Below, in pieces: positions 48,417-64,000 of a DNA stretch of 64,000 nucleotides. Origin of the DNA: Nitrosomonadales bacterium. GTDB lineage: Bacteria > Pseudomonadota > Gammaproteobacteria > Burkholderiales > Gallionellaceae. The notes beneath the pieces were generated by a model. The model was not told where the DNA came from and searched no databases. It saw nothing but the letters and a program-made list of their open reading frames with translations. The translations under genes and the position numbers were made by a program. The stretch is taken from assembly GCA_025408405.1 (NCBI GenBank), contig JANYJE010000068.1:1-64000 (forward strand), read 5' to 3'. The number at the start of each line of letters is the position of its first letter. The stretch's first letter is position 1.

Positions 48417-48560
48417 GTCCCGGCGCTGTTTTTTGATTATTGACAGGCGGGGCTGAAATCAGGAGAATGCTGCCTCCTCGTGATGGATTGCCGCCTTGGT
48501 TCAGAGCTTTGGAACGCACGCAGCCTGCGGGCTGATGGCAAGATTCAGTAAAAGTTTCCG

Positions 48561-48637
48561 GTGATATAGCTCAGGTGGTTAGAGCGCAGCACTCATAACG
48601 CTGAGGTCGGTGGTTCAAATCCACCTATCACCACCAA
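48561..48637 (+). tRNA. tRNA-Met (CAT)
   Basis: ggtgatatagctcaggtggttagagcgcagcactcataacgctgaggtcggtggttcaaatccacctatcaccacca; CAT anticodon, encoded CCA. Confidence 0.93.
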
Positions 48638-48675: not shown

Positions 48676-48865
48676 TTTGCCGCTGCTCCGCAAAACACGA
48701 CTTTTGTATCAATAAAACAACGAGATAAAAATATTTTTCGTTGTTCATTGGTGTCCAAGGTCGTTCACGGAAGTTCACCAACGTCCAATTCGATTGTGAG
48801 TATCGGTGTGAGTATTTATGCCGATTTTCGTAGACTGTGAGTATCGGATTGAATTGGAGGCAATT

Positions 48866-50110
48866 ATGGGAATACTGTCGGACAAAGCGGTTCAGGCAGC
48901 CGCAACCAAGAGCAAGCAATACGGAATTAGCGATGGGGATGGACTCACGTTGATCGTCAAGACAACGGGCGCCAAGCTATGGTGGTTGCGGTATCGGTTT
49001 TGTGGAAAGGCGAAGACTTTATCGTTTGGCGAGTACCCTCTCGTTAGTCTAAAAGAGGCCCGAGAGAAAGCCTTCCTTGCCAGGAAGACATTGCTTGAAG
49101 GTCGCGATCCCTCGGCAGAAAAGATTGCCGCCAGGAAAGAGATCATCAAGATCCAGGAAGAAGAGAAGGCAAGTCTAGCTACAACATTTGAAAGCGTGGC
49201 TCGTGAGTGGTTTGGAAAATTCTCAAAATCCAATAACTGGGCGGAGAACCACTCCAGCAAAATCCTTGGGCGCCTTGAAAAGGATATTTTTCCGTGGCTA
49301 GGTGATAAGCAAGTCAGCGAAATTGAGCCACAAGAATTGTTGTCGGCGATTCGCCGAATCGAAAATCGAGGTGCGCTTGAGACTGCACATCGCGCATTGT
49401 CAGAATGTGGCCGTGTATTTCGATATGCAGTTGCCAGTGGTTTGGTCAAACGTGATCCGGCAGGAGATCTAAGAGGCGCATTACCACCCTATAGAAAGGA
49501 TAAGCACTTCGCAGCTGTTACAGATCCGAAGCAGGTTGGCATGTTGATGCGTGACATCGAAGCATACTCGGGGACAAATGTTGTACGAGCGGCATTCGCT
49601 TTGTCGCCGCGAGTCTTTCTCAGGCCTGGCGAACTTCGCAAGTTGGAGTGGGACTGGATCGACTTTGATTCAGCAATGATAACTATCCCAGCGTTTGCAC
49701 ATAAGACCGGCAAGAGAACGCAGGCCCCGCATCTTGTTCCGCTTAGCACCCAAGCGCTGCAGATTCTGAGAGAAATTCAGCCGCTGACAAGTGATGGCAG
49801 GCATGTATTTCCCAGTGAGCGCGACAAGAATCGCCCTATGTCTGACAATGCAGTTCGTTCAGCAATGAGACGCATGGGATGGACGGGGGATGAGATGACG
49901 CCCCATGGTTTTCGTGCGCTGGCAAGTACAATCCTGGACAACCTAGGTTATAAGCAGGAATGGATTGAGAGGCAGTTGGCGCATGATGAGCAGAATAAGA
50001 TTAAGGCAGCGTATAAGCGCGATTTGCATTTGATGTATATGCCCGAACGAAAAAAAATGATGCAGGATTGGTCGGACTATCTTGATGATCTAAAAATCGG
50101 CCGGCCTTGA
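48866..50110 (+). CDS. P4-type tyrosine recombinase/integrase
   Basis: N-terminal DUF4102-like arm domain (YGISDGDGLTLIVKTTGAKLWWLRYRFCGKAKTLSFGEYPLVSLKEAREKA), catalytic RPGELRKLEW, HGFRALASTIL, QLAHDEQNKIKAAYKR; ggagg SD. Confidence 0.95.
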   Translation: MGILSDKAVQAAATKSKQYGISDGDGLTLIVKTTGAKLWWLRYRFCGKAKTLSFGEYPLVSLKEAREKAFLARKTLLEGRDPSAEKIAARKEIIKIQEEEKASLATTFESVAREWFGKFSKSNNWAENHSSKILGRLEKDIFPWLGDKQVSEIEPQELLSAIRRIENRGALETAHRALSECGRVFRYAVASGLVKRDPAGDLRGALPPYRKDKHFAAVTDPKQVGMLMRDIEAYSGTNVVRAAFALSPRVFLRPGELRKLEWDWIDFDSAMITIPAFAHKTGKRTQAPHLVPLSTQALQILREIQPLTSDGRHVFPSERDKNRPMSDNAVRSAMRRMGWTGDEMTPHGFRALASTILDNLGYKQEWIERQLAHDEQNKIKAAYKRDLHLMYMPERKKMMQDWSDYLDDLKIGRP

Positions 50111-51727: not shown

Positions 51728-52054
51728 ATGGTCGCCCTTTTCAAGAAAAAGCCGCACGACCAGAAAAGATCGATCCGATATGAAATCTTGTTGTCGCCCA
51801 CGGAAGCTGAAGACATTCGGTCGTTCGCCAAATTACGGGACTTATCTGTTGCTGATTTCATGCGCCGGGCGGCCTTGGGGAGACGCACGGATGTTCAATT
51901 TGAGACAGAAATAGTCCTTGCGCTTCGTGAGGTCGTCCAATCAATTCGCCAACTGCATTCAGCGTTTGCTGCAAAAGATATTTTCATTCTCAAATCAGAA
52001 CTGGCGCAGGTAATCGAACAGGCGCTCGCTGCCATGTTGCGGATCGGCAAATAG
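51728..52054 (+). CDS. MobC-like relaxosome accessory protein
   Basis: RSIRYEILLSPTEAEDIRSFAKLRDLSVADFMRRAALGRR; upstream of relaxase. Confidence 0.65.
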   Translation: MVALFKKKPHDQKRSIRYEILLSPTEAEDIRSFAKLRDLSVADFMRRAALGRRTDVQFETEIVLALREVVQSIRQLHSAFAAKDIFILKSELAQVIEQALAAMLRIGK

Positions 52055-52114: not shown

Positions 52115-52711
52115 ATGCGTTTTAAATCGGCGACGAAAATGGGTGATGAGCTGGGTCTCAGCTATCACAAGATCAACAAAGTGCTGGCGCGAAATGGTTT
52201 ATATGATGAGGCAACGAGACGTCCCACCGCGCGTGCGCTCGAAAATCACTTGGCCGAAATAAAATCTACGACGAGTAGTTTTTCTGGCAAGGTCGTTGAA
52301 TTTAACGTTTGGAACGTCGATGAGCTGAAGCCCCTCTTCCCCCAACCCAAAAAAACAAAAAAATCCGGCCCATGTCAGTCGCCGCCTGAAGCGTTGGACA
52401 AAGTCTGTGACGCCTTTGCAGATTTTGGCCACATGCTCAAGATTGAAGTGAGCAATCCGAAAGATGGAATTAGTACGGAGGCGCAGTCTACGGTGATTGA
52501 GGCGTACTTTGGCGAGTCTTCCTGCTTGCGCGGCATCTTGCTGCTCCACCGATTCATGCGCCCGAACGAGGCAGCGGCAGCAAAGGCCGTTACGCTGCTA
52601 CTTGCGAACGAGTTATATGTCGCCGCCAAAGAAATCAATGTAAGGCGGGCGCAAACCAATCTGCGCACGATTGAAAGGACGCTTCAGTGGCTATGCGATA
52701 AGGCTCGCTGA
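52115..52711 (+). CDS. Hypothetical protein with N-terminal HTH-like region, upstream of relaxase
   Basis: TKMGDELGLSYHKINKVLARNGLYD; position between MobC-like and relaxase genes. Confidence 0.6.
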   Translation: MRFKSATKMGDELGLSYHKINKVLARNGLYDEATRRPTARALENHLAEIKSTTSSFSGKVVEFNVWNVDELKPLFPQPKKTKKSGPCQSPPEALDKVCDAFADFGHMLKIEVSNPKDGISTEAQSTVIEAYFGESSCLRGILLLHRFMRPNEAAAAKAVTLLLANELYVAAKEINVRRAQTNLRTIERTLQWLCDKAR

Positions 52712-52727
52712 TTACTGCGCACCACCT

Positions 52728-55124
52728 ATGATCCCCGTCATTCTTCCAAAGAGGCAGACGAGGGTGAAAGGTGGCCGCGTTTTCAACAAACTAATCAGCT
52801 ACGTTGAGGGCGCCGCCGCCTTTCAAGCTGCCTCAGGGGATCAACAGTTTGACAATATTCTTAACTACACGGCCAATCCCGTGGATCAGAAACGCGGCGG
52901 GGAGAAGTGCATTGCGATCCGTACGCACGGCGTAACCGACTTGAGTTCCGCGACCATCGAAATGAATACAGTAGCTGCACGCAACACGAGGTGCGAAGAC
53001 CCAGCATACCATTTTGTGCTGGCATGGCCCGAGTTTGAGAGGCCCCACCCAGATGAGATTTTTGAAGCGGCCGAGCATGCCCTTCGGTCGCTCGGGCTAG
53101 CCGATCATCAATACGTTTTAGCTGTCCACGCCAATACGGACAACCTCCACTGTCATGCTGCCGTTAACCGTGTAAACCCCACCACGTTCAAGTCCCGCAA
53201 TGTCGAATGGGCACACAAAACAATTCATCTGGCCGCACGCCAGGCCGAAATCAAGCATGGGTGGGCCCATGACAATGGTATCTACATTGTCCAGATCGAT
53301 GACCAGAATCGAAAATCCATTGTTCTTAACCCTGATCTCGACTACCGTGTCTCTCGCCGGTTGCAGTCCTCCGCAAGCATACTGCCGACTTGGCATGACC
53401 CGGATAGCCTGGAGTCCTGGCTCAAATTCAAGGTGGCCAAAACGGTAATGCAGGCACTGCCCTCCCTCACAAACTGGAATGCATTACACGACCTGCTGGC
53501 TGCCTACGCCATCACGCTGACTGATAGTGGTGGTGGTGGGCTGCGACTACATGCCACATCTCAGACGACGAGCGAAGTTATTAGCCTCCCAGCCAGCAAG
53601 GGTTTGAGAATTCTGAAGCGTGGTGAACTGGAAGAGCGATGGGGAAAATTCGCACATAGCCGGTTAACTGTCAGTGTCGTACCAGATACATTACGCTTAA
53701 CCCCGCGCAGCATAGCGGGCCAGGCAAGCAGCTCTCAGAATGCCGCAAGTGATCTAGGCGCAGATTCGCCGGACAGGAAGCCAAGGGCGCGCGATGAATC
53801 ACTGCGAGCAAAGCGTCGCGATCAACGTGCTGCTGCTCGTGCGGATCTTCGTCACCGCTTTGCACAGTATCAGCGGTTCGTGCGAGAAGGTGACGTTGAT
53901 TATTTCAAGAACAAATCCGACCTTCGTGCCGAGCTTAGCCAATCGATCAAAAGGATCAATAAAGATGCCAAAGCACTGCACTCAGCCTGTCGCCTTGCGT
54001 GGCGTGCCAATGTAAAAGGCTGTCTGCTAAGAATGGCGGCCATTGATTTTGAAATGTCGCATCAAAAACTTGAGGCCAAGACGATTTTCCAAACGAGAAT
54101 GCAATCGCTGCAGGTCACCCGTCTACCGCCTTTGACTTGGCGAAAGTGGTTATACGAACAAGCCAATCTTGGAGATCAGGCCGCTTTGTCGGCCTTGCGC
54201 GGCATTGTCTATCAAGCTCAGCGCGATGCAAAACGCAAAGATAAGATCACGCCATTACTGTACGAAGCAGAACCCGATACACCGGAGTCTTATACACGAA
54301 AATTCCACAAGGCCATGGCGCGACTGCTTGAGGAGGAACAAAAGGAGGCTGCCATTCGCTCCGCGCGACTTGATGCCATGCGCCCGTTCGAAACTGATGC
54401 GCTGCTCGTTAAGCACATCAACATGCAATGGCACGTTACTGAAAACGGCAATGTTGCCTACACCCATCACGATGGGCAGCATCTGTTCACAGATCGAGGG
54501 AACCGCCTGACCTTTGACCGCGTCGTTGTGGGTGATGACGACATCCGTCTGGCTCTTGCCCATGCGCAGCAGAAATTTGGCAATCAACTCACCCTGACCG
54601 GGGACGATCCAGTCTTTACCGCAAGGATGGCGTGCCTGGCCGATGACATGGGTATAACCATCTTGAATCCAGACATGCAACAGGTGATTGCCAGCCGCCG
54701 CAGAGAGCTCGCAATGCGGTACGCAAAGGAGCAACCCACTCCGACGACTCTAGCGAAGGCGACAACGCCAGAACAGCAGGAGGCATCGCCACAAAGTTCG
54801 GGGCACACCGGCCAGATCGACCAGGCCACCAACCACGAGCGCCTGCGCGCCATGGTGCTAGCGATTGACCCGCGTGCGGAATTTATAATCCCAGACTCAT
54901 CGACCAGTCATGCAACATACAGCGGGCCGGTTGCCGCTGTCTTTACGTCGGAGGAGCCCGCCCAAGGCTTTGCCCAGCATTTGGGGCGAAGCCTATATGC
55001 GCTACATTCGACTGACGCTCCAGCACACCATGGCCACGCCAATATCACGGTGCAATATCGCGACGGTGTGGCCATCGTGACGGTTCACGCTATCGGCAAA
55101 GGGAAAGATGGAAAGATTAGGTAG
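52728..55124 (+). CDS. MOBP-type relaxase with C-terminal LPD7-like region
   Basis: VLAWPEFERPHPDEIFEAAEHALRSLGLADHQYVLAVHANTDNLHCHAAVNRVNP (HxH motif); LPD7-like HLFTDRGNRLTFDRVVVGDDDIRLALAHAQQKFG. Confidence 0.88.
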   Translation: MIPVILPKRQTRVKGGRVFNKLISYVEGAAAFQAASGDQQFDNILNYTANPVDQKRGGEKCIAIRTHGVTDLSSATIEMNTVAARNTRCEDPAYHFVLAWPEFERPHPDEIFEAAEHALRSLGLADHQYVLAVHANTDNLHCHAAVNRVNPTTFKSRNVEWAHKTIHLAARQAEIKHGWAHDNGIYIVQIDDQNRKSIVLNPDLDYRVSRRLQSSASILPTWHDPDSLESWLKFKVAKTVMQALPSLTNWNALHDLLAAYAITLTDSGGGGLRLHATSQTTSEVISLPASKGLRILKRGELEERWGKFAHSRLTVSVVPDTLRLTPRSIAGQASSSQNAASDLGADSPDRKPRARDESLRAKRRDQRAAARADLRHRFAQYQRFVREGDVDYFKNKSDLRAELSQSIKRINKDAKALHSACRLAWRANVKGCLLRMAAIDFEMSHQKLEAKTIFQTRMQSLQVTRLPPLTWRKWLYEQANLGDQAALSALRGIVYQAQRDAKRKDKITPLLYEAEPDTPESYTRKFHKAMARLLEEEQKEAAIRSARLDAMRPFETDALLVKHINMQWHVTENGNVAYTHHDGQHLFTDRGNRLTFDRVVVGDDDIRLALAHAQQKFGNQLTLTGDDPVFTARMACLADDMGITILNPDMQQVIASRRRELAMRYAKEQPTPTTLAKATTPEQQEASPQSSGHTGQIDQATNHERLRAMVLAIDPRAEFIIPDSSTSHATYSGPVAAVFTSEEPAQGFAQHLGRSLYALHSTDAPAHHGHANITVQYRDGVAIVTVHAIGKGKDGKIR

Positions 55125-55418
55125 CTTCTGACCATCCTTGGAGGCCTGAACGACCACTTTGAATGTGTTCTTTACACCGTTTTTGTCGATTCTAGCCTTC
55201 TTTTTTTCAAACAGCCTCAAGCTCACTTCCACATCGATGTCTGTCGGGCGAAAAGCGGAAGTAATTCCAAGCTGCGTGAAATGGCAACTAGGACAGAACT
55301 TCGGCCAATGCTGCGGTTGGGGATGGGCTGGCGCCATGTCTGTAATCTGGTACATTCCAGAACTTGGCACCGCACTTGCTGTGTTCCTTCCTCATTTGCG
55401 TCACGTTACGGTATATCC

Positions 55419-57281
55419 ATGAAAACACCCACGAAGTCCGAACTCCAAGCACGCATTTGCAATTTCATGCTCGGTAAACAACTGGGGGCTGGCGGTAATG
55501 CGGTGGTTTACGCTGCCAAGCGAGATGAAGAGCTGGTTGCAGTCAAGTTTCTGCTAAACACTGACGTAAAACGGTATTTGCGCTTCCGCGATGAGGTCCT
55601 TGTAGTGACTACCAGCCTCAAGGGCTCCAGCCGTGTAATCCCAATAATCGAACACCATCTCCCGGACACCGAAAGTCCGGAAATCCCGTGGTACGCGATG
55701 CCCGTCGCAACGCCGATTCGCAAACGCTTGAAAGGTGCGCCAAAGCGTGATGTTGTGAGTGCGCTGGCGGAATTGGCAGAAGGGCTGGGTGATTTGCACG
55801 ATACAAATGTCGCCCACCGGGACATAAAGCCAGAGAATCTCTTCTTCTTCGAGAATAGTTTTCGCTTTGGTGATTTCGGCATTGCGAAATTTCCGGATAG
55901 TGCTGGGTTGACGACTGCAACCGAGCCCATGGGCCCTCAAGGCTATATGGCCGATGAGATGATGCGCGATTCTGGGTCAGCAGATCCTTTCAAGGCAGAC
56001 ATATTCAGCTTGGCCAAGACGCTGTGGGTTTTGCTGACTGACCAGCGGCATCCATTTTTGGGGCAGTACTCGCGCTACGGGAATTACTCATTGGACGAAT
56101 TGCTACCTAAGGACCGCTTTGTGCATGAGCCAATTGATGATCTGCTGGAAAGATGCACTCATTCCATCCCAGACAAGCGCCTCGGCGCACGCGAGTTCGC
56201 ACAGGCACTGCGTAATGTGCTCGCCGCACAGGGCGACTTCGAGTTGCGCAATCCACTCCAGTGGGCCGGAGCGGAGGCTTGGGCAATTAGTGTGCCTTGT
56301 ACGCGTGTCGAGTGGACTGATCCGGCGGCAATCGTCCAAGTCGTGAAGATTCTCAGCCGTCGTGATTCGCTTAATCATTGCTTCCTTCCAGGAGGCGGTG
56401 GCTGGGACATCACTGATGCGGAACTGACGGAGGGCGGTGCGGCTATCCTCTTATGGCATGACACTGAATTGGCCACAGTGGTCAGACCGACCAGGTTGAC
56501 CCTCGAACGCATTCAGGGCGGCGCGCCAAGAAGCTATGCCACCCTAGAGTCGGCTACACTTAAAAAGCTAGGGGTACAGAAATGCAACAAATGGTATGAA
56601 AAGTTATTGCGCTGTGATGAATACACCTACATGGCGTTACCGCGCGAATATGATCCTTGGCCCAAGGGGCTCACAAGAATCTCGCGTTACTACGAACCTG
56701 GAATGTTCATCATTGCGCCCAAAGGCGGCATCTTTAACCACGAGGACAGCTACGAGGGAAAGGGTAACGCGCTGGGTCGAGACAAGCTTCGTGCAGCCTT
56801 TGAGAGCGGATTGATAAATAGGAATCAGGAACGAGTTACATTTGGCCTACGCAGGATCGTCCGGCTTGCTGAGCAAGTGCCAGTTCCGGACTCATCATTC
56901 CTTTCTAAGGTAGACCTGCAGATCTTGCAGAAGCTGTTAGAACTCGACCAGGCCATGAAGGGGGTAACAATGCCCTCCGATGAAGTAGTAAACCTCGCAA
57001 GCATCCGCGCCCATGTACCGGAAAGGGACGCAAAATACCAAGAGATTCTTAAATTTATTCGAACGCTGAGCCCAGTACAACTTGGGGAAGTAATGGCGTT
57101 ATTCCTATTTGGCCGCGGTGATATCGATGATCCTGAAGATGAATCAAAGATTGCAGCCCGTGAAGCAATGAATGACCCTTATTCCGCCGAATACTTCGCA
57201 GAAAAGTTCGGCAACAACAATTTTCTCAAAGCCGTTAATCGTTTTGGCTTTGAAATAGTTGGTTCTCTGTTAGAGAAATAA
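55419..57281 (+). CDS. Eukaryotic-like Ser/Thr protein kinase with novel/DUF3775-like C-terminal region
   Basis: GKQLGAGGNAVVYAAK, VAVKF, HRDIKPENLFFFENSFRFGDFGIAK; C-terminal YQEILKFIRTLSPVQLGEVMALFLFGRGDID. Confidence 0.88.
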   Translation: MKTPTKSELQARICNFMLGKQLGAGGNAVVYAAKRDEELVAVKFLLNTDVKRYLRFRDEVLVVTTSLKGSSRVIPIIEHHLPDTESPEIPWYAMPVATPIRKRLKGAPKRDVVSALAELAEGLGDLHDTNVAHRDIKPENLFFFENSFRFGDFGIAKFPDSAGLTTATEPMGPQGYMADEMMRDSGSADPFKADIFSLAKTLWVLLTDQRHPFLGQYSRYGNYSLDELLPKDRFVHEPIDDLLERCTHSIPDKRLGAREFAQALRNVLAAQGDFELRNPLQWAGAEAWAISVPCTRVEWTDPAAIVQVVKILSRRDSLNHCFLPGGGGWDITDAELTEGGAAILLWHDTELATVVRPTRLTLERIQGGAPRSYATLESATLKKLGVQKCNKWYEKLLRCDEYTYMALPREYDPWPKGLTRISRYYEPGMFIIAPKGGIFNHEDSYEGKGNALGRDKLRAAFESGLINRNQERVTFGLRRIVRLAEQVPVPDSSFLSKVDLQILQKLLELDQAMKGVTMPSDEVVNLASIRAHVPERDAKYQEILKFIRTLSPVQLGEVMALFLFGRGDIDDPEDESKIAAREAMNDPYSAEYFAEKFGNNNFLKAVNRFGFEIVGSLLEK

Positions 57282-59472: not shown

Positions 59473-60987
59473 TTGATCGATATGGTACGACAGCTGGCTG
59501 TTTTATCAACACATCGCTTTACGATAGCATCCATACCCGAGTTGGTTGGCAAACTAGCGCAACATCAAAAAGCGCTCCTAAACATTGCGTGGGACAGCTA
59601 CGTTTCTCACGGGCGACTATTCCCTCTAAGAGGCCTCACAAATATTTTCGGGAAATTGACTATTAAGGAGGGTTTCTCTGGTTTAAACGGAAGCCTGATA
59701 TACGAAACCAACGAACAAGATGGGGCCTATTTTAAGTTAACGCTCTACGGTGCTTTCCTAACTGACCATGGGCCTGCTCTGGCCTCACTAATTGTCCGAC
59801 TTCTGGATCTCATCAAGGACCTTTGTAAAGAGGACAGCTATATAAAAAAACTGAATAGAGACCAAATTAAGGATCGGCTAGAGCTTTCAGATTCGGAAAT
59901 TCAAATCCTGTTTAGGCTTCTTACTCTTGGCTTGCCAAGCGGTATGCCGCTCTATTTGTCCAGTTACGCACCGGAGGGCGCTGAGTGGACGATCACCATT
60001 AATGATTTGGAAGTTTTCGAACTTCTCCGCTCTGATGAAACGTTAGCATATATGGACGAACATCTATCAGAGGGATATAGACCGGCAGAGCCATGTTCAT
60101 ATAGGGAACGATTAACATATCAGCACAGAAGAGCGGGCTCAGACTCACCAATTGTCGGCTTCGATAATTCCGCTGGATCGCTAGGCGTCAAATCCACCTC
60201 GACGGAGGACAAAAAACAATCAGATTTGAACCCATGGCCAGTTGTCCGTGGCTTCCTCCTGAACCTGTCTAGCTATGATGTGCCTAAAATCGTAGATCGA
60301 GCGGGGTTGACAGTCGATTGGTCTCTGACGGACAAACAGAATTATTCACACAAGATGCGCCTAGCGGAATATAGACCTCGGATTGATACCGCATACCAAG
60401 CGCTATCGAACGATAGTGACCGGCTTCGCGTTGCATACATTGTCACCCAAGAGCTCGCAAAACACGGCGCCACCGACGAGCTAAACGATGCGCTAGTTAA
60501 GATTGGCTGGGAACTTCGAGGAGGCGGGCTGGCTCCATCAAATAGTGTCGTCGGTGAATTGTTCTTTCAAGAGCAGAGTCAGCACGCTGCCTATGTAGAG
60601 ATCCGTGCGATTGTCCAAAAAGTGACGAGCAAAATTGCGATTATTGATCCATATATCGATCAGTCAATTTTAACGTTGCTTTCAACCTGCGCAAAACCAG
60701 GACTACGCGTCGAAATTCTCACATCATCACTACCTACCGATTTTGCTCTTGAAGGCAAGAAGTGGCTAAGTCAGCATGCGGGGAGTTCGCTTAATGTCCG
60801 TACAACCAAGGAATTCCATGATCGATTCATCATTCTTGATAACTCTGTATGTTGGCATATCGGTTGTTCCATCAAGGACGCCGGAAATAAGGCGTTTATG
60901 CTTAGCGAGTTGGAAGACCGCGATAACCGCGAGGCCCTGCTAGCACAGGCAAGAAAGTCATGGGACGCCGCCATGGTTGCGTTGTAG
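59473..60987 (+). CDS. Multidomain protein with C-terminal PLD-like (HKD-type) domain; candidate defence effector
   Basis: C-terminal KIAIIDPYIDQSILTLLSTC ... FHDRFIILDNSVCWHIGCSIKDAGNKAFMLSEL; N-terminal ~350 aa unassigned; TTG at 59473 or ATG at 59482. Confidence 0.75.
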   Translation: MIDMVRQLAVLSTHRFTIASIPELVGKLAQHQKALLNIAWDSYVSHGRLFPLRGLTNIFGKLTIKEGFSGLNGSLIYETNEQDGAYFKLTLYGAFLTDHGPALASLIVRLLDLIKDLCKEDSYIKKLNRDQIKDRLELSDSEIQILFRLLTLGLPSGMPLYLSSYAPEGAEWTITINDLEVFELLRSDETLAYMDEHLSEGYRPAEPCSYRERLTYQHRRAGSDSPIVGFDNSAGSLGVKSTSTEDKKQSDLNPWPVVRGFLLNLSSYDVPKIVDRAGLTVDWSLTDKQNYSHKMRLAEYRPRIDTAYQALSNDSDRLRVAYIVTQELAKHGATDELNDALVKIGWELRGGGLAPSNSVVGELFFQEQSQHAAYVEIRAIVQKVTSKIAIIDPYIDQSILTLLSTCAKPGLRVEILTSSLPTDFALEGKKWLSQHAGSSLNVRTTKEFHDRFIILDNSVCWHIGCSIKDAGNKAFMLSELEDRDNREALLAQARKSWDAAMVAL

Positions 60988-61075: not shown

Positions 61076-62706
61076 GAGGCTGTGTAAAAACGAGTAACTA
61101 GCCGATCGTTGCGCAACTGGATTCCAGTTCGCCATTTTCAGGTGTTCGCGAAGGAGGAGGTTTTTTCTGCCAGTAATTACGCCATCACGCCTGTTGCATC
61201 GCTGCAATCATTCCTTTCACTCCCATTATCTGCATTACCCGCTTCATGTTGTACGCCAGGACATGCAGGCTCATCTCGGTACTGACGCGGTTCATTGTCC
61301 GCGTCAGGAAGTGCCTGGCACCCATCCAGTATTTGATCGTGCCGAAGGGATGCTCGACGGTCTGCCTTCGGATACGCATGGCCTCGGGTCTCATATCGAG
61401 CCGTTTTTGCATGCTTTCCAAGTTGGCCTCATGCTCCCATCGGCTGACTCGCCGTTCTTTGCCGGGCGTGCATTTCTCCTTGATCGGGCAGCGCGGGCAA
61501 TCCGAGCTCCAATAACGATAGATCAAGTGGCCCTTGTCGACGCTTTCGCTATGCCTGATCAGCCTGCTACCACCGGGACATAGGTATTGGTCTGCTTCGG
61601 GATCATAGATGAAGTCTTCCTTGTCGAAGCGCCCCTCCGCCTTGGCTGATGACGTCATCGGTTTGGATACATAGGCGGTGATCCCCGCTTCGTTGCAGGC
61701 CAGAATCTCATCTCCACTGTAGTACCCTCGATCAGCCAATACGTTGAGCTCTTCAGTCTCCATGGCCACTTTGGCCTGCTTTGCCATTCTTGAGAGCTGT
61801 GATCGGTCCGTGCCGATGTTGGTGACTTCGTGTGCAACGATCAGGTGATGCTGAGTCTCGACGGCTGTCTGAACGTTATACCCAACCATCCCGCGACTGG
61901 TACTGGTCGCCATGGCCCGTGCATCGGGATCCGTTAGAGAGACTTGGCCGGAGGGCGACGCCTTCAGTTGCACCTCAATCTCCCGTAGTTCCGCCATGTC
62001 CTTCTTCAGGGTGGCAAGCTTCTCTTTAAGGCGTGCAGTTTTTATTTCGGTGACATCTGACTGTTGGCGGTCGGCTGTGTCCATCGCAACCAGATACCGC
62101 TCGATGCATTGGTCTATCTGCTGCATGCGCTTCTCTAACTTGCCATGGGTGAAGTTGCGGTCATGGGCATTCACTGCCTTGAACTTGCTGCCGTCGATCG
62201 CCACGACAGCTTGCGAGAACAGGTTAAGGCGGCGACACAACATCACGAACTGGCGGCAGACATTGCGGATCGCTTCACCATTGTCCCGCCTGAAATCGGC
62301 GATGGTCTTGAAGTCCGGCGCAAGCTTGCCAATCAGCCACATGAGCTCGACGTTGCGCTGGCACTCGCGCTCAAGGCGCCTGCTGGACTGTATGCGATTC
62401 AGGTAGCCATACAGATACAGCTTCAGCAGGATCGAAGGGTGATAGGAGGGGCGCCCCGTTGCAGCAGGCTCTACGCCAGCGAACCCCAGTGCCCGCATGT
62501 CCAGTTCATCAATGAATGCCTCGACTGCACGAACAGGATTGTCTTCGGCGATGTAATCGTCCAGGCATTCTGGCAATAAGGTGGTTTGATTCCGGCTTTC
62601 GCCTTCGATGAATCGCTTCACGATCTTCCCTCCATGCGGACGTTACGGCATTAACGCATGAGAAAAGTTGCGGTGGACAGAACAGAGGTTGTTTTCACAC
62701 AGCCTC
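61076..62706 (-). mobile_element. IS1182-family insertion sequence with GAGGCTGTGT termini and apparent 4-bp TSD GCCG
   Basis: Left end gaggctgtgtaaaaac, right end gttttcacacagcctc; gccg at 61072-61075 and 62707-62710. Confidence 0.85.
61185..62621 (-). CDS. IS1182-family transposase
   Basis: EDNPVRAVEAFIDELDM, GRPSYHPSILLKLYLYGYLNRIQSSRRLERECQRNVELMWL, ADRGYYSGDEIL, ARHFLTRTMNRVSTEMSLHVLAYNMKRVM. Confidence 0.95.
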   Translation of the reverse strand: MKRFIEGESRNQTTLLPECLDDYIAEDNPVRAVEAFIDELDMRALGFAGVEPAATGRPSYHPSILLKLYLYGYLNRIQSSRRLERECQRNVELMWLIGKLAPDFKTIADFRRDNGEAIRNVCRQFVMLCRRLNLFSQAVVAIDGSKFKAVNAHDRNFTHGKLEKRMQQIDQCIERYLVAMDTADRQQSDVTEIKTARLKEKLATLKKDMAELREIEVQLKASPSGQVSLTDPDARAMATSTSRGMVGYNVQTAVETQHHLIVAHEVTNIGTDRSQLSRMAKQAKVAMETEELNVLADRGYYSGDEILACNEAGITAYVSKPMTSSAKAEGRFDKEDFIYDPEADQYLCPGGSRLIRHSESVDKGHLIYRYWSSDCPRCPIKEKCTPGKERRVSRWEHEANLESMQKRLDMRPEAMRIRRQTVEHPFGTIKYWMGARHFLTRTMNRVSTEMSLHVLAYNMKRVMQIMGVKGMIAAMQQA

Positions 62707-62857: not shown

Positions 62858-63103
62858 TTAGTCTTGCAGAGAATCCTCTAGCAGCGCCCCTATAACCTCG
62901 CTTTGCGTTTTCTTTTCGGCAAGTGCTTTCTTTCTCAGTATGTCTGCTTGGTCATGGGTAAGAAAAAAACTTACTTCAATACCATCTAAGAGCATTTTTT
63001 CTCGGTAAGAGGCTTGCCGTTGGGCAGGGGTACGTACGCCCTTAGGGTTTTTGGGGCGCCCCCTCTTCGCCGTCTTAATGTCAGTTTTTTCCAAGATATT
63101 CAT
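62858..63103 (-). CDS. Ribbon-helix-helix/replication-regulatory-like small protein
   Basis: KRGRPKNPKGVRTPAQRQASYREKMLLDGIEVSFFLTHDQADILRKKALAEKKTQSEVIGALLEDSLQD. Confidence 0.65.
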   Translation of the reverse strand: MNILEKTDIKTAKRGRPKNPKGVRTPAQRQASYREKMLLDGIEVSFFLTHDQADILRKKALAEKKTQSEVIGALLEDSLQD

Positions 63104-63121
63104 TCCCCGGTAATTAATTAT

Positions 63122-63194
63122 CACGCCCTCACGATAATACATGAAGGCGCAATTTACGTATTGGAAAAATGCTTGCAATAAACGTGAGGACGTG
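63122..63194. promoter_or_regulatory. Inverted repeat in divergent promoter region, possible RHH operator
   Basis: cacgccctcacg (63122-63133) and cgtgaggacgtg (63183-63194), 11 of 12 complementary. Confidence 0.5.
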
Positions 63195-63259
63195 ACATTA
63201 TATTAGCGCAATTATGGAAACAGCAAAACTCTTTGAAAGTCGACTTCTCGGGAGGCATC

Positions 63260-64000
63260 ATGAAGGACAAAAGCATTTCTTCTTATTTAAAGCAGGGGCA
63301 TGAAAATGAAATTGAAGATGCTCAGGCGTTGGCCAATATGATTTTGGACAAACCAGAAATGAAGATGGGGCAGGGGATGGATGAATTTTCTCAGCAACTG
63401 TTTGTTGCAGTTGCAATGGACATCGTTTACGAAAAGGGAAAAAAGGGAAAATTTGATGACATGCTGGATTTTTTGGTAGATCCCGTATGGGATGATGCAG
63501 CGCAAATCATATGGATTTTTCAAACTTCAGAAGCCTTCCTTAATGATGGGGCGAAGAGATGGCTGGTAGATTTTTACGATTTGATTGCTCCCAAAGTTGA
63601 AGGTAAAGAAGAGTGGATGATTAAGCAGTGCTATTGGCAATGGGCAAATGCGTTTGCATTTGCTGGTATCACGGAAAGAGAGGTGCTTCCAATCGACTCT
63701 CGCGTACAGGTTTTCAATCAGACATTTGTTCTGGAGGCAATTAAATACACAGGCGACTTAAAAGGCGACAAATCAAAATGGAGCAATCGGGTTATTCAGT
63801 ACGCTCAGAAAAATCTGGGGTACCGCTTAGTACCAGATGCGGCGAGGGCAGGGTACGAGTTACAAAAAATTAGTCATGATTTTGAAAATCTCGCTGAACC
63901 AATTTCTCGTCTGCGAACTAGCCTCATTCTTGCCGGTTGCATGCGTCCTGATGATTTTCACGTTACCCCGATTCTGCTGCTGGGTGAACCTGGCATTGGT
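63260..64000 (+). CDS. AAA+ ATPase-type protein, truncated by window end; N-terminal ~200 aa possibly T4SS coupling-protein-like (not in supplied ORF track)
   Basis: ggagg SD then MKDKSISSYLKQGHENEIEDAQALANMILDKPEMKMGQGMDEFSQQLFVAVAMDIVYEKGKKGKFDDMLDFLVDP... ending ILLLGEPGIG (start of Walker A); open for 247 codons to the window edge. Confidence 0.75.
   Translation, partial: MKDKSISSYLKQGHENEIEDAQALANMILDKPEMKMGQGMDEFSQQLFVAVAMDIVYEKGKKGKFDDMLDFLVDPVWDDAAQIIWIFQTSEAFLNDGAKRWLVDFYDLIAPKVEGKEEWMIKQCYWQWANAFAFAGITEREVLPIDSRVQVFNQTFVLEAIKYTGDLKGDKSKWSNRVIQYAQKNLGYRLVPDAARAGYELQKISHDFENLAEPISRLRTSLILAGCMRPDDFHVTPILLLGEPGIG

Follow-up and report, generated by a model that had tools for sequence, protein, structure and literature searches.

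The gene studied here lies at the right edge of the window, by which we mean the whole stretch of DNA that was analysed (64,000 nucleotides, the first 64 kb of a contig of 65,877 bp from a Nitrosomonadales bacterium). It encodes an AAA+ ATPase with an N-terminal domain related to bacterial conjugation proteins, and its carrier is apparently an integrative mobilizable element. The relevant features of the window are the following:

48560-48636: tRNA-Met gene
48818..50110, + strand: tyrosine integrase gene adjoining tRNA-Met, the likely left end of the island
51728..52054, + strand: NikA-like mobilization protein (profile match)
52115-52711: uncharacterised ORF between the NikA-like and relaxase genes
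52671..55124, + strand: MOBP-type relaxase gene of this mobilizable island, with Relaxase, TraI_middle and LPD7 domains
62858..63178, - strand: divergent gene for a small ribbon-helix-helix-like protein (assigned by eye; no Pfam match)
63249..63262, + strand: Shine-Dalgarno sequence (GGGAGG) and ATG start (direct reading)
63260..63664, + strand: N-terminal domain, residues 1-135, homologue of the TraG/VirD4 all-alpha domain (profile comparisons)
63275-63505, + strand: statistically secure portion of that domain, residues 6-82 (profile-profile alignment)
63695..63970, + strand: conserved linker, residues ~146-237, RVQVF...GYR.VP...FENL.EPI.RL...L.LA..M.P..F (alignment)
63971..64000, onward to contig base 64663, + strand: start of the Lon-type AAA+ module (profile matches, motifs)

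The carrier thus possesses an integrase and a relaxase, apparently without a coupling protein of its own: no PF02534 protein was found in the whole assembly, which is 93% complete. A direct repeat of the tRNA end (att), marking the right end of the island, was likewise not found on the contig, which ends at position 65877. Several other genes accompany the mobilization region. Beside the relaxase lies a Ser/Thr protein kinase (55281-57281) with a weak C-terminal DUF3775 match, and further on a PLD-like protein (59473-60987) that matches the PADLOC candidate defence family PDC-S05 (4e-27) and, below the cut-off, the VPA1262 N-terminal domain. An inserted DUF772/DDE transposase (61185-62621) separates the mob region from the ATPase gene. 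The small divergent protein upstream of the ATPase has a relative in the same position in locus L003, and other small minus-strand genes occupy this place in L014, L015 and L016; its product is likely a regulator or accessory protein. Directly after the ATPase gene, just beyond the window, is an HAD_SAK_2 gene (64708-65200 on the contig; L002:4709-5159), shortened to 107 aa, with the remainder of the domain (IALDDEEM...) in another frame.

The ATG at position 63260 is preceded by GGGAGG, and the 247 codons that follow are open up to the window edge at 64000. The first-pass annotation had noted an ORF here that was missing from the supplied list, with a good Shine-Dalgarno sequence and 247 open codons, and the sequence past the edge shows it to be real: the same frame runs on to a stop codon at 64661-64663, so that the complete ORF has 467 aa. 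Nothing within the frame points to an error. The annotation had also considered that a sequencing frameshift might have split two ordinary genes. Relatives from other genomes and plasmids are collinear with the window ORF and keep its architecture in one reading frame, so a frameshift or an accidental fusion is ruled out.

The N-terminal domain had been thought to recall TraG/VirD4 coupling proteins, although no Walker A motif precedes it, and both observations proved correct. In the reading frame there is no Walker A upstream of the domain, and the only informative family match is to NF010453 (TraG), obtained with E=0.0026 for the window domain by itself and by 10 of 14 aligned N-domains, the best at 8.6e-5. 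A profile built from the alignment of these 14 N-domains was compared with 369 genomes of the class and retrieved, besides its own family, only four ORFs (643-697 aa), all of them TraG-type coupling proteins by their sequence. Across the class, family and order samples, each of the 29 examined matches outside the family is a type IV coupling protein (T4CP) in which an APTRSGKG-type Walker A lies 63-69 residues before the match, and in 28 of them a recognised Walker B follows it. In the phylum sample the matches, judged by length, are likewise of T4CP size. Alignment of the 14 N-domains with the corresponding all-alpha domains (AADs) of the 29 TraG proteins by hhalign gave P=3.4e-15 and a score of 92.7, compared with a best score of 20.3 among 100 column-shuffled versions of the N-domain alignment. 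A chance resemblance to TraG is ruled out by this control together with the whole-genome profile scans. One TraG protein (L064) aligns out to model position 133, suggesting homology of the whole N-domain to the AAD.

Structural comparisons yielded less. A PDB profile search with the N-domain returned only chance matches (E about 1), and AlphaFold models of the domain from two sequences are all-helical at low confidence (pLDDT 39 and 33). Alignment of TraG with the solved structure of Cag-beta (8dol) produced two aligned stretches, with TraG residues 267-361 left unaligned between them. In TrwB, the all-alpha domain (G184-G297) is flanked by the Walker A region on one side and the Walker B region on the other; channel activation and recognition of the cognate relaxosome are reported functions of the AAD (PMC7434980, PMC12624023). 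By its position in these proteins, the captured piece thus belongs to the domain of recognition. On sequence grounds, we take the captured fragment to be the cargo- or relaxosome-recognition all-alpha domain of TraG and not a piece of the TraG ATPase.

The AAA+ module occupies residues ~238-445, its Walker A motif (GEPGIGKT) beginning at residue 242, and is preceded immediately before the P-loop by the linker (FENL.EPI..L) that is specific to this ATPase subfamily in the alignment. It matches Pfam AAA (5e-15), TIGR00763 lon (6.6e-33) and, among PDB entries, Lon (1e-25). The Walker A, Walker B (DEVDK), sensor 1 and Arg finger motifs are all present and are retained in the Lon-type family members; the set of ATPase motifs is intact, and the core is closest to Lon. 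The protein stops shortly after the AAA+ lid, and the Ser-Lys protease domain is absent. Identity with Lon protease is ruled out by this absence and by the confinement of the TIGR00763 match to AAA positions 356-496 of 795.

The protein therefore shares parts with several known systems. Like the IncP-type TraG coupling protein (VirD4 family; PF02534, NF010453/NF010450), it has a region homologous to the AAD, at residues 6-82; unlike TraG, it shows no membrane anchor, lacks both nucleotide-binding halves as well as the APTRSGKG before and the LLDEF after the domain, and reaches only 10.8 bits with PF02534, below the cut-off of 20.1. A degenerate coupling protein is ruled out, since the T4CP nucleotide-binding domain is absent. 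Lon has the same core, Walker A and B, sensor 1 and Arg finger included, whereas the window protein has neither the Lon N-domain nor the protease and scores 114 bits against a cut-off of 608. Uncharacterised plasmid proteins annotated as "AAA family ATPase" (Acidovorax p1-T1, Variovorax, pPNAP02, Leaf58, Aeromonas) have the Lon-type core in common with it but differ in their N-terminal regions, in which no AAD was recognised. The comparisons support the view that the protein is neither a coupling protein nor Lon, but a chimera that carries a homologue of the TraG recognition domain. The annotation had suggested just such a combination of a coupling-protein fragment with a separate Lon-like or chaperone-type AAA+ ATPase; the fragment can now be specified as the AAD, and the architecture is recurrent rather than a one-off fusion. 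Both outcomes that the annotation had named as refuting the idea are absent, as the N-terminus does have a T4SS-family match and the frame is unbroken.

AAD-bearing ATPases were seen only in the Burkholderiales, at 14 loci. They occur in 7 of 158 genomes of the family, that of the window included, and in more genomes of the order; further examples were found in one Herminiimonas MAG and on three plasmids of Polaromonas and Rhodoferax. A scan of viral contigs revealed no relatives, and among the matches listed for a phage collection none extends past the AAA core. In the tree of AAA cores, a single change accounts for the AAD label (support 74/94), so that the N-domain could have been gained once, though the support is modest. 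In L031-L033, an additional N-terminal extension ahead of the AAD resembles, by eye, the AAD-less relative L017, a pattern that would be consistent with insertion of the AAD. The N-domain also occurs outside the Lon-type family: in genome G014 (L023:7535-8926) it is fused to a motor of a different AAA+ family, a CbbX/CfqX-type ATPase with AAA_lid_6, and 3.4 kb away (L023:12309-14219) lies a Lon-type protein with two tandem copies of the domain. Because it is fused to a CbbX-type ATPase in one relative, the N-domain behaves as a transferable adaptor. The domain is under purifying selection, with dN/dS of about 0.2 for its core (residues 1-84) in two closely related pairs. On the Polaromonas plasmids, the ATPase is interrupted by an IS3 element (L014:6710-9637, L015:11980-15012), and the fused ORF of pH1NP1 is annotated merely as an IS3 transposase.

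The neighbourhoods of the relatives are varied. A relaxase is located near the ATPase in six of the 14 loci (pH1NP1, pH8NP2, the R. antarcticus plasmid, G061, G130 and the window) and was not detected in the other eight within the stretch read. Restriction-modification neighbours comprise HsdM in L018, relatives of that HsdM in L019, L021 and L033, an Eco57I-type enzyme in L031, and a DNA methylase with ResIII in L032. Genes for HAD, calcineurin-like phosphoesterase, DEDD exonuclease or phosphatase proteins adjoin AAD-bearing members in L016, L020, L023, L031 and L032 and relatives without the N-domain in L024 and L034. In recurrent clusters next to these ATPases (L020:4561-9015, L023:14440-19901, L024:12065-14953, L034:10535-13240), genes for HAD and calcineurin-like phosphoesterase proteins are grouped with those for a DEDD exonuclease and a dual-specificity phosphatase, an assembly that resembles parts of Swiss Army Knife RNA repair. 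The gene context does not single out bearers of the N-domain, since AAD-less relatives likewise stand beside a relaxase (Acidovorax) or in HAD/phosphoesterase neighbourhoods. The family is one of island genes, and context alone decides neither for helping nor for hindering transfer.

The reading we prefer, to which we give somewhat less than an even chance, is that the protein is a soluble AAA+ remodelling ATPase, a protease-less Lon-type motor targeted by the captured AAD of a coupling protein. Mobilizable elements that lack their own coupling protein must use that of a helper. The N-domain may still bind the targets of the TraG AAD, that is, the relaxase or relaxosome, or the partners of TraG; the simplest target would be the MOBP relaxase encoded by the island itself, together with its NikA-like partner. 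The AAA+ ring, presumably hexameric, would then remodel the bound relaxosome or coupling-protein complex through ATP hydrolysis. Since the assembly yielded no coupling protein, the ATPase would most simply serve as an adaptor that prepares the element's relaxosome or hands it to the TraG-type machine of a helper; that same binding could just as well hold the relaxosome back. The conserved HW and LLVG residues of TraG are altered in the N-domain (D/T.EFS and LFVAV), so binding could also have been lost. More broadly, and more tentatively, the AAD may have been captured from T4CPs as a transferable bait or adaptor for unrelated motors, Lon-type and CbbX-type, yielding ATPases that remodel or strip relaxase-DNA complexes and thereby control conjugation; its fusion to a CbbX-type motor and its duplication in a Lon-type protein are as expected of an adaptor. 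The strategies published for mobilizable elements consist in encoding either a coupling protein or accessory factors of the relaxosome (PMC5704250); the use of an AAD-bearing ATPase would be distinct from these.

The captured domain might instead act as a decoy in fertility inhibition, competing with a rival TraG for the relaxosome or poisoning TraG assembly, with the ATPase disassembling the complex, such that a co-resident IncP-type element is blocked. The relatives are located on mobile elements, yet we consider the proposal unlikely: the carrier itself depends on the coupling protein of a helper, and destroying that protein would harm the carrier, as mobilizable elements need it. Moreover, to our knowledge the known fertility inhibitors are small unrelated proteins, none of them a copy of the AAD. 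Inhibition at this point has precedents, as TraG/TrwB-type coupling proteins are already targets of the plasmid inhibitors PifC, Osa and FipA (PMC5696584), and in Cag-beta, CagZ attaches to the AAD before the hexamer forms (PMC12624023). Acting in the recipient, the AAD could also serve as bait for a relaxase that enters with the transferred strand and is then extracted or unfolded by the Lon-type motor. Such an anti-conjugation defence would agree with the restriction-modification genes that adjoin several of the loci and with the candidate defence gene of the window island; restriction genes are, however, common on any island, the N-domain matches no model of the defence library, and in six loci the ATPase lies near the relaxase of its own element, which would have to be spared. 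We regard this possibility as distinctly doubtful.

Finally, the N-domain may be merely a reused helical bundle, and the ATPase, together with its HAD, phosphoesterase, exonuclease and phosphatase neighbours, may process nucleic-acid ends in a role unrelated to conjugation. The recurrence of such neighbours beside relatives with and without the N-domain speaks for this, as does the position of the HAD_SAK_2 gene directly after the window ATPase. We nevertheless hold end processing to be improbable, for it leaves unexplained both the specific homology of the N-domain to the TraG AAD and the relaxase neighbours.

Searches of curated families and of the literature, with subscription papers mostly outside their reach, gave no description of a fusion between an AAD and a Lon-type ATPase. 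The specificity of a coupling protein for the DNA it exports lies in the AAD. Here it is found detached from the coupling protein and joined to two other AAA+ motors, in elements apparently without a coupling protein of their own, a combination that suggests a motor helping or blocking gene transfer between bacteria. The AAD-bearing ATPases may thus point to an unrecognised layer of mobilization control, an idea that could be tested directly by single-gene mating assays.
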